A stretch of DNA of 64,000 nucleotides from Qipengyuania sp. YIM B01966 (GTDB taxonomy: Bacteria > Pseudomonadota > Alphaproteobacteria > Sphingomonadales > Sphingomonadaceae), in the NCBI RefSeq assembly GCF_016461955.1, contig NZ_JADMNM010000001.1:181598-245597 (forward strand). The letters run 5' to 3'. Numbering within the stretch: the stretch's first letter is position 1; each line of letters starts with the position of its first letter. This document shows, piece after piece, positions 14,738-21,181 of the stretch. The notes beneath the pieces were generated by a model. The model worked only from the letters and a program-made list of their open reading frames with translations. It was not told the DNA's origin and did no database searches. Both the position numbers and the translations under genes were made by a program.

Positions 14738-14792
14738 AGGCGGCCAAGAAGCCCGTAACAGGGGCCGTTTTCACCGCAGGGAGGGACCAAAG

Positions 14793-16964
14793 GTGGATCT
14801 CGTTACCATATCCATTGTGCTGGGCTTGCTGGCCGTCGTGTACGGCTTTGTCACCAGCCGCCAGGTGCTGGGTTCCAGCGCCGGCAATGCAAAGATGCAG
14901 GAAATCGCCGGCGCCATTCAGGAAGGCGCGCAGGCCTATCTGCGGCGGCAATATACCACCATCGGCATCGTCGGGGTGATCGTGGCGGTGCTGGTGTTCG
15001 TGTTTCTCGGGACCATTCCAGCTGTCGGCTTCGTGATTGGCGCGGTCCTGTCAGGCGTCGCCGGCTTCATCGGCATGAACATCTCGGTCCGGGCCAATGT
15101 CCGCACTGCGCAGGCCGCATCGACCGGGCTGCAGCAAGGGCTGACCATGGCCTTCCGTGCGGGCGCGATCACCGGGATGCTGGTGGCGGGCCTCGCTCTG
15201 CTCGCGATAGCGGTATTCTTCTGGCATCTCACGTCGAATGGCGCGCTTGGCCATGGCCTCGCGCCCAATGACCGGCGGGTGATCGATGGCCTCGTCGGCC
15301 TTGCCTTCGGCGCCTCGCTTATTTCGATCTTCGCCCGCCTTGGCGGCGGCATCTTCACCAAGGCGGCTGACGTCGGCGCCGACCTCGTCGGCAAAGTCGA
15401 AGCCGGTATCCCCGAAGACGATCCACGCAACCCGGCGGTGATCGCCGACAATGTCGGCGACAATGTTGGCGACTGCGCCGGCATGGCCGCCGATCTGTTC
15501 GAAACCTATGTCGTCACCGTCGGCGCCACCATGGTGCTGACCGCGCTCTTGATGAAAGGTCTCGGCGATCTGCTGATGCCGATGATGGCGCTGCCGCTAC
15601 TGATCGGCGGGGCGTGCATCGTCACCTCGATCATCGGCACCTATTTCGTCCGCCTGGGCGGCGGGAAGAACGTCATGGGCGCGATGTACAAGGGCTTCCT
15701 TGTCACCGCGGTGCTGTCCGTGCCGCTGATCTGGCTGTGCATCGACCAAGCGATCGGCCTCAACACGGTCATCGGCGGCAGCCTGACCGATGTCGCGGCC
15801 GGCCAGCCGGTGGCGGAAGAGGGTCTGGCCGAACAGGTCGTCGGCTTCAGCGGCTGGGATCTGTTCTGGTGTTCGCTGCTCGGGCTCGTCATCACCGGGC
15901 TGATCATCTGGATCACCGAATACTACACCGGGACGAATTACCGCCCGGTCCGCTCGATCGCCAAGGCGTCGGAAACGGGCCACGGCACCAACGTCATCCA
16001 GGGCCTCGCCATCAGCCTCGAGGCGACGGCGCTGCCGACGCTGGTGATCGTCGGCGGGATCGTCATCGCCTACCAGCTCGCCGGGCTGATCGGGATTGCC
16101 TATGCGGCAACCGCGATGCTGGCGCTGGCCGGGATGGTCGTGGCGCTCGACGCCTATGGCCCCGTCACCGACAATGCCGGCGGCATTGCCGAAATGGCCG
16201 GGCTGGACGACAGCGTGCGCGAAAAGACTGACCTGCTCGACGCGGTGGGCAACACCACCAAGGCGGTGACCAAGGGGTATGCGATCGGTTCGGCCGGCCT
16301 TGCCGCGCTGGTGCTGTTTGCCGCCTACACCACCGACCTTGGCGAATTCTTCCCCAATGTCGACGTCGATTTCAGCCTCGAAAACCCATACGTCATCGTC
16401 GGGCTGCTGCTGGGGGCGCTGCTGCCCTATCTGTTCGGCGCGATGGGGATGACCGCCGTCGGCCGTGCGGCGGGTGACGTGGTCAAGGACGTGCGTGAAC
16501 AGTTCCGCGCCGATGCCGGGATCATGGCCGGGACCAGCCGGCCGAACTATGCGCGTACGGTCGATCTCGTCACGAAGGCAGCGATCAAGGAGATGATCAT
16601 CCCCTCGCTGCTGCCGGTGCTGGCGCCGATCGTGGTCTATTTCGTCATCACAGCGATTGCCGGCCAGCAGAATGGCTTCGCCGCGCTCGGCGCGCTGCTG
16701 CTGGGCGTGATTGTCGGAGGGCTGTTCGTGGCGCTGTCGATGACGGCGGGCGGCGGCGCGTGGGACAATGCCAAGAAGTATATCGAGGACGGCAATCACG
16801 GTGGCAAGGGCAGCGATGCCCACAAGGCGGCCGTGACCGGCGATACGGTCGGCGATCCGTACAAGGATACGGCCGGCCCGGCGGTCAACCCGATGATCAA
16901 GATTACCAACATCGTCGCGCTGCTGCTGCTGGCCGCGCTGGCCGGCGGTCATTCGGTGATGTAA
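14793..16964 (+). CDS. hppA: Membrane-bound proton-translocating pyrophosphatase (K+-independent type)
   Basis: This integral membrane enzyme couples PPi hydrolysis to H+ pumping. The product is 723 aa from a GTG start ([11 protein letters not shown] after processing), preceded by GGGAGG. It has about 16 hydrophobic segments. The substrate loop [20 protein letters not shown] is followed by [20 protein letters not shown], and a second acidic motif [13 protein letters not shown] lies further on. The [10 protein letters not shown] motif carries Lys where K+-dependent enzymes have Ala (GNTTAA), indicating the K+-independent, H+-pumping class. Followed by a strong terminator. Confidence 0.96.
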
Positions 16965-19105: not shown

Positions 19106-21181
19106 TTAGCCGCCGGCGTGGTAGAAATCATAGACCTTCTGCGCCACGCCCGCGCTGATACCCGGCGCGCGCTGCAAATCCTCGAGACTGGCCGCGCGCA
19201 CCCGCCCGGCCGTGCCGAAATGGAGCAGCAGCGCCCGCTTGCGCGACGGGCCGACGCCGGGGATTTCGTCGAGCGGGCTGGCAGTGATCGCCCGGCTGCG
19301 CTTCGCCCGGTGCGCGCCGATGGCGAAGCGGTGAACCTCGTCGCGCAGAGTTTGCAGATAGAACAGTAGCGGCGAGTTCACCGGCAGGGTCTTTTCCCGC
19401 CCGTCGGGGAAATGGAACACCTCGCGCCCTTCGCGCCCGTGATGCGGGCCTTTGGCGATGCCGATCACCGGCACGTCCTCGATCCCGAGTTCCTCCAGCA
19501 CGGCCATCACGCTGGAGACTTGCCCCTTGCCGCCGTCGATCAGCACCAGGTCAGGCCAGGTGGTCTCGTGGCCGGCGGGTTTGCTGGCCGAGGGCTGGGC
19601 TGTGCTTCGAGACGGTTCGGACTGTGTCCGCACCTCCTCAGGACGAACGGATGTTGTGTCACCCCGTTCGTCCTGAGGAGCGGGTGAAGCCGCAGGCTGA
19701 AGCCCCGTCTCGAAGGACGCCAACCCCCGGAACCGCCGGCCGATGACCTCGCGCATCATGGCGAAATCGTCGTTGGTCTGCGCCGAGCGGATGTTGAACT
19801 TGCGATACTGGCCTTTCACGAACCCGGCGGCGTCGGCCACCACCATCGCGCCCAGCGCCTTGTCGCCCTGAATATGGCTGTTGTCGTAAATCTCGATCCG
19901 GCCGGGCGGTTCGTCGAGTTCGAGGAAATCGGCGAGTTCGCGCATCCGGGCGGCCTTGGTGCCGGTTTCGGCCAATCGCCGGTCGAGCGCGTCGGCGGCG
20001 TTGCGCTGCGCCTGTTGCATCAGCCGTCGCCGGTCGCCGCGCTGGGGGACCGAAATCTCGACGCGGTGACCGGATGCTTCGCCAAGTGCCTCGGCCAGCA
20101 CCGCGGCCTCGGGCAATTCCCGATCGACCAGAATGGTCCGCGGCGGCGGCACCTCTTCGTAGAATTGCGCCAATACGTCCGTCATTACCTCGTCCTCGCC
20201 CACCTCGGCGGTGTGGCGGGGGAAAAAAGCACGGTGGCCCCAATTCTGTCCGCCGCGGACGAAGAAGGCCTGGATACCCATCTGCCCGCCCTTGGCGGCG
20301 AGCGCGAAGATATCGGCATCGCCAACCGCCGCCGCGTTGATCGCCTGGCTGCCCTGGATGAAGGTCGCCGCGCGCAGCCGGTCGCGCAGCAGCGCTGCGC
20401 GTTCGAAATCGAGATCGGCTGCCGCTTCGGCCATCTGTCGTTCCATCCGCGCCTGCACTGCACCCGACTTGCCGCCGAGAAATTCCTTGGCCTCGCGCAC
20501 GAGTTCGGCATAGCCTGCCTGATCGATCCGCCCGACGCAGGGTGCGGAGCAGCGCTTGATCTGGTAGAGCAGGCAGGGCCGGTCGCGGCGGGCGAAGAAG
20601 CTGTCGGTGCAGCTTCTCAGCAGGAACAGCTTTTGCAGCGCATTGATGGTCGTATTGACTGATCCGGCGCTGGCGAACGGCCCGTAATAATTGCCTTTCG
20701 CCCGCCGCGCGCCGCGATGTTTCGTCAACCGCGGAAAGCTGTGATCGGCGCGGAGCAGAATGAACGGGAAGCTCTTATCGTCGCGCAAAAGCACGTTGTA
20801 AGGCGGGCGAAACCGCTTGATCAGCTGGGCTTCGAGTAGCAGCGCCTCGGCTTCCGAATTGGTGGTGACAATTTCCATCGCGCGGGTCTGGCTGACCATG
20901 CGCCGCAGCCGGTTGGAAAGGTTCGTGACCTGCGTGTAATTGGCGACGCGGTTCTTCAGCGCGCGCGCCTTGCCAACATAGAGCACATCGCCCTTGGCAT
21001 CGACCATCCGGTAGACGCCGGGCTTGGGCTTCAGCGTCCGCACCGTCTCCCGGATCGCGGCCACGCCGGCCTCGATATCGGGCTGCGAGCCCTTGACGGT
21101 GGCAGCAGCCTGCGTCTCGTCGAACCGCGCCTTGCCGCGCGGATCGTGCGGCGTGCCGGCAGAGGAAGGGATGCGAACCAT
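19106..21181 (-). CDS. uvrC: Excinuclease ABC subunit C, with an in-frame palindromic insert
   Basis: UvrC makes both incisions in nucleotide excision repair. The product is 691 aa from the ATG at 21181 (MVRIPSSAG), longer than the usual 600-620. The GIY-YIG nuclease is near residues 65-140 ([26 protein letters not shown]). The UVR/UvrB-binding segment [14 protein letters not shown], the RNase H-like nuclease ([16 protein letters not shown] and [10 protein letters not shown]) and the C-terminal HhH pair ([16 protein letters not shown]) are all intact. Residues about 489-526 are encoded by a nested palindromic repeat (19605-19715) that reads through without a stop and lies between the two halves of the second nuclease domain. 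Confidence 0.95.
19605..19715. repeat. Nested palindromic repeat inserted in frame in uvrC
   Basis: The inner arms CTCCTCAGGACGAACGG (19634-19650) and CCGTTCGTCCTGAGGAG (19664-19680) form a perfect 17-bp inverted repeat around a 13-base loop. The outer arms CTTCGAGACGG (19605-19615) and CCGTCTCGAAG (19705-19715) form a perfect 11-bp one. The sequence resembles the TTCGTCCTGAG.../...CGAAGGACG intergenic palindromes common in sphingomonad genomes, here inside a coding region and translated. Confidence 0.8.

Follow-up and report, generated by a model that had tools for sequence, protein, structure and literature searches.

A REP-like palindromic dimer lies in frame in uvrC of Qipengyuania sp. 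YIM B01966, in a UvrC loop filled by different palindromes in related genomes

The 64,000-nucleotide stretch of the Qipengyuania sp. YIM B01966 genome analyzed here (the window) includes a uvrC gene whose reading frame runs through a large palindrome, raising the question of how such an element comes to be coding and whether it is a passenger or is favored in a repair gene. The gene assignment is secure, with a TIGR00194 score far above the cut-off of 285 bits and GIY-YIG, UVR, UvrC RNase H and HHH Pfam domains in the product, and the frame is open throughout in spite of the palindrome. The positions of the gene, the element and its parts are listed in Table 1.

Table 1. Features of uvrC and its palindromic insert; positions are those of the window.
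Feature	Position	Strand	Basis and remarks
uvrC	19106..21181	(-)	691 codons, ATG at 21181; TIGR00194, 535 bits; Pfam domains
Whole element, REP-like head-to-head dimer	19601..19719	(-)	Encodes UvrC residues 489-527; repeat and family match
Well-preserved REP unit, CCGTTCGTCCTGAGGAG-core-CGTCTCGAAGGACG	19664..19719	(+)	Exact family-pattern match; unit anatomy
Second REP unit, more worn, opposite orientation	19601..19650	(-)	Outer arm has 1 mismatch to its partner and 2 mismatches to the consensus end
Inner arm 1, 17 bp	19634..19650	.	Inverted-repeat search
Inner arm 2, 17 bp, perfect complement to arm 1	19664..19680	.	Inverted-repeat search
Outer arm 1	19602..19615	.	13/14 paired, 11 perfect
Outer arm 2	19705..19718	.	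Pairs with outer arm 1
Remaining loop, outside the palindrome	19559..19600	(-)	Residues 528-541, 14 residues; translation

The element is 119 bp long and contributes 39 of the 691 residues of UvrC. The first-pass annotation had reported nested perfect inverted repeats of 17 bp and 11 bp, and both are present: the inner arms are 100% complementary, and the outer arms pair around a perfect 11-bp core (19605-19615 and 19705-19715). Folded as RNA, the coding (minus) strand from 19595 to 19725 reaches -75.9 kcal/mol (z = -7.7), which none of 200 shuffles equals, and folded as DNA it has z = -6.6, again with 0 of 200 shuffles equally good. In related UvrC genes all 13 long loops tested have fold z-scores of -2.0 to -7.8, compared with -1.1 to +1.3 for eight loops of normal length; every folded loop of 52 residues or more is strongly structured, and none of the shorter ones tested is. 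The UvrC loop spans 26-42 residues even without palindromes, and an ordinary hypervariable linker could in principle have grown by slippage and acquired a palindrome by chance; the fold relative to shuffles, the structured long loops and the exact match to a multi-copy repeat family described below in effect rule this out.

Within the RNase H domain, the insert separates the second acidic motif from the third, with D471/D472 preceding it and D549 following. The loop from DDF(A/G)MM to DGG has 70 residues here and 26-42 in 116 of 130 UvrC loci, so that some 35-40 residues have been added, in agreement with the approximately 37 estimated previously. The catalytic motifs on both sides, also previously described as retained, are among the columns that are invariant in an alignment of 42 relatives (Y57/Y68, E117, D433, D471/D472, D549 and H617). 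In relatives, GHET or SHET stands directly ahead of a 10-residue stretch. The corresponding gap in the alignment is a short loop in the solved UvrC structures 3c65 (residues 74 to 82) and 8b0q (residues 80 to 86). An AlphaFold2 model, of which we use local confidence alone (pTM 0.43), places residues 494-539 below a pLDDT of 50, with a helix (472-492) on one side and the catalytic strand (545-549) on the other; the inserted segment is thus probably disordered, and an example of the predicted peptide, from this species or Parerythrobacter lacustris, is SFETPQTASSPPQDER.

The position of the insert within a nuclease domain is what might be seen if uvrC were a decaying pseudogene that tolerates junk, but the 691 codons have no stop, the catalytic residues are kept, identity to relatives is 76-82%, and the inserts of fifteen species are all in frame; a pseudogene is very improbable. 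The mRNA hairpin is very stable, and ribosome bypass or RNA processing could conceivably leave the insert out of the mature product. Because the insert has no stop and keeps the frame, no bypass is needed, and we give such a mechanism very little credence.

Comparison with relatives shows that the extra segment is clean and that nearly all other UvrC proteins lack it, as the first-pass annotation had anticipated. Most of the first 30 genomes have a short loop; two (G016 and G034) have a long one, in each case with another palindrome. In a survey of 398 genomes of the family, 391 of them with UvrC, at least 17 have broken or split matches and at least 11 have truly long loops, these counts being lower bounds as a split-match screen may miss smaller inserts. 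Together with 80 named loci, the survey yields at least 15 distinct insert-bearing UvrCs, all in frame and all in the same loop, and at least five different palindromes, with types assigned by eye from the sequence. Type A is present in Qipengyuania and P. lacustris, type A' in G232, type B in G034, G140, G200, G159 and at three further loci (L059, L068 and L125), the B-like variant type C in G016, type D in G182 and G307, type E in Erythrobacter colymbi (L073), and type F in G320.

On a quick UvrC tree, built with the loop left out, insert presence needs 12 changes, at least nine of them forced by well-supported branches; most must be separate gains rather than losses because the palindromes differ. 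By its placement on this tree of sequences, the Qipengyuania insert is young. One genus (g3) has empty alleles in three genomes (G002, G120 and G271), type D in G182 and type A' in G232. The left junction, LA followed by SFET, is common to the Qipengyuania and P. lacustris inserts, and may reflect common ancestry, transfer or two events. We also note that the type-B insert has the hairpin CCATGCGCAGCATGG in G034 (L008/L132) and CCACCCGCAGGGTGG in G200 (L129), with both sides changed, pairing kept and the segment still coding; these paired changes might stem from gene conversion by other copies or from selection acting on the hairpin.

The units themselves form a recognizable repeat family. The 37 units collected from several genomes have fixed ends, CCGYTCRTCCTGAGGAG and CGTCTCGAAGGAC, and a variable, mostly self-complementary core with recurring GA..GA mismatches; they are 47-68 nt long, form a nested hairpin, and are arranged as head-to-head dimers. 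The genome of P. lacustris (G128) has 25 exact units, 40 arms and approximately 18 dimers, with 0 arms in the control read, and two of its copies are intragenic, one in uvrC and one, a second type-A dimer, in a gene for a PccA-like carboxylase, both in the same frame. The exact unit is absent from the two congeners searched (G015 and G190). A pattern search of the Qipengyuania genome (G000) finds one exact unit, that inside uvrC, and the sole further copy of the exact type found is a degenerate intergenic dimer on contig C39 (L003:1460-1620), between pccA- and pccB-like genes. A simpler hairpin (stem-TGAG-loop-CGAA-stem) occurs at 23 places in 856 kb of this genome, some of them by chance, compared with 3 in reversed text, and there are about nine intergenic REP loci in the approximately 1.25 Mb of 2.44 Mb covered, window included. 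A separate palindrome of another repeat type, CCCCGGACTTGATCCGGGG...CCCCGGATCAAGTCCGGGG, is also present on contig C39 (L337:6414-6490) and is apparently intergenic.

These comparisons support membership of the element in a short repeat family of the Erythrobacteraceae, mobile or once-mobile and otherwise mostly intergenic. The earlier suggestion that a normally intergenic palindrome had become coding is supported by the distribution of the family, including the 40 arms in P. lacustris. The prediction of many intergenic copies elsewhere in the genome succeeds in part: P. lacustris has its many dimers, but in Qipengyuania the exact arms recur just once, in the degenerate C39 dimer, alongside related simple REPs. 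Profile searches find no Y1 transposase (PF01797) in Qipengyuania or in P. lacustris, and we reject a RAYT as the present mobilizer in both. In G034 a gene for a Y1 transposase contains a single in-frame TAG (L282).

Other genes also carry in-frame palindromes, extending the first-pass annotation as does the repeated filling of the UvrC loop. In Qipengyuania, glyS (L306; C12:19801-39800), an 895-residue ORF including an N-terminal overrun, contains two in-frame REPs, a single unit at 1612-1634 and a head-to-head dimer at about 2662-2760, and uvrA (L320; C12:297001-317000), on the minus strand, has an in-frame REP dimer, GPSTGSGRADAATFRDPAHPEHVEGR, around 14758-14834; no uvrB was found within the approximately 1.25 Mb covered. 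In peptide searches of other genomes, which are biased towards the frame searched, type A is in frame in DnaE2 of G256, and type B is in frame in UvrA of G373, ValS, BchB, GlyS, an acyl-CoA carboxylase beta-like protein, GcvPB at the same loop in two genomes (L290 and L300), methylmalonyl-CoA mutase at the same site in two genera (L295 and L296), and PccA of G223 (names follow NCBIfam for proteins that were scanned, and recognizable motifs for GlyS and the beta-like protein). The type-B insert in PccA is in the same region as the type-A insert of P. lacustris, and this loop is filled by two different repeat families in different genomes (L223 and L289). The Qipengyuania uvrA dimer likewise occupies the same loop as the type-B palindrome of G373. 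As a control, a GlyS segment was run against the same 398 genomes; split matches came from roughly 150 of 381, Qipengyuania included, counted by eye with two inspected. By this measure glyS appears to be interrupted more often than uvrC and may rank first among hotspots for translated palindromes, and UvrC is ruled out as a unique hotspot (at least 11 long loops in 391).

The prominence of repair genes raises the alternative that the inserts are selected, with palindromes in excision-repair genes tuning repair through hairpin-dependent expression or altered UvrC activity (mutator alleles). Both uvrC and uvrA are tagged in Qipengyuania, the UvrC loop has been filled at least nine times on the tree, the UvrA loop used in Qipengyuania holds a different palindrome in G373, and a 2013 study (PMC3733652) argues in its text that repair genes are filled more than chance allows. 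The glyS control gives roughly 150 genomes with split matches, however, compared with about 11 true long loops for uvrC; carboxylases, a mutase, a glycine decarboxylase subunit and a chlorophyll enzyme carry inserts too, and the palindromes differ both in sequence and in the peptide inserted. Both the glyS result and the metabolic targets tend to argue against repair having a special role, and we consider selection unlikely. A related proposal is that unrelated sphingomonad palindromes land preferentially, or are kept by selection, in fixed loops of the genome-maintenance proteins UvrC and UvrA, where the palindrome or its peptide would modulate excision repair; this is similarly doubtful.

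We favor, with good though not full confidence, a near-neutral passenger: a mobile REP-like dimer that inserted in a tolerant uvrC loop, is translated as a disordered peptide and has been retained. The palindrome entered as DNA, downstream of the helix after the DD motif and ahead of the strand bearing the catalytic DGG aspartate, with a length that preserved the uvrC frame and a sequence that by chance reads open in a hydrophilic frame, and UvrC would tolerate the resulting 39 or so probably disordered residues. The data show the insertion itself, its frame, its family, its recurrence and its predicted disorder; that it is translated, nearly neutral and retained is inferred, as is the route by which the DNA moved. 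Such insertions would arise genome-wide, with those in tolerant loops surviving. Copies in needed genes would then persist because precise in-frame removal is rare, and intergenic copies would be free to decay; intergenic decay together with retention in genes would explain the in-frame copies in uvrC, uvrA and glyS of a genome that is otherwise sparse in repeats. Some observations sit less well with tolerance: there is just one other exact-type dimer in Qipengyuania, no Y1 transposase was found there or in P. lacustris, and excision-repair subunits are the products of two of the three genes found filled in Qipengyuania, an outcome that tolerance by itself would not lead one to expect.

The uvrC locus provides one gene with many natural replicates showing how selfish palindromes become protein. 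Whether they are neutral passengers or are favored in repair genes is now directly testable, and genus g3 offers natural empty and filled alleles.

The in-frame position of the element resembles that of the Rickettsia palindromic elements (RPEs), in-frame palindromes in protein genes (PMC3733652), a parallel that the first-pass annotation had drawn and that stands. In both systems palindromic repeats are in frame in unrelated protein genes, add an extra peptide and have intergenic copies too, but the lineages differ. RPE-4 and RPE-6 are CGTC-REPs according to the text of PMC3733652, and the Qipengyuania unit is unlike the CGTC-REP tag, stem and loop described there. The text gives CGTC-REP families 1-4 an unpaired CGTC end, an 8-9 bp stem starting with AT, a 4-5 nt loop and a CCA-like tail; the unit differs from this description in sequence and fold, and we reject assignment to these families.

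Head-to-head REP dimers spread through a genome are also typical of REPINs and BIMEs mobilized by RAYTs, but no Y1_Tnp gene, and hence no Y1 tyrosine transposase flanked by repeats, was found in Qipengyuania or P. lacustris. The closest relatives are the intragenic REPs that Di Nocera et al. (2013; PMC3733652) describe in many free-living bacteria, including Erythrobacter litoralis and Sphingopyxis alaskensis, and a literature search on UvrC inserts and sphingomonad REPs found nothing closer. Translated REPs outside Rickettsia, in excision-repair genes and in sphingomonads among others, are thus already known as a kind from the text of that study, which names excinuclease ABC genes, writing 'UvrABCD' and giving uvrA and uvrB examples. 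Like these repeats, the present family is multi-copy and mostly intergenic with dimers common (in P. lacustris, 2 are in genes), and the uvrC copy is in a known gene, in frame and absent from homologues. GTAG/CGTC intragenic REPs, as described in the text, share with it the occurrence of REPs or dimers in excinuclease, DnaE2 and tRNA synthetase genes and the head-to-head arrangement, and CGTC-REPs are described there as having no dedicated or linked transposase, matching the lack of a Y1 transposase in both genomes searched here. The Qipengyuania unit differs in its fixed ends, nested hairpin and greater length. Our search found no published description of a single protein loop that has repeatedly taken up palindromes, at least five different ones in all; the one UvrC loop filled in this way sets the present system apart from the GTAG/CGTC REPs, for which the text of PMC3733652 gives recB of two Xanthomonas species as the sole case filled at about the same site, a weaker parallel.
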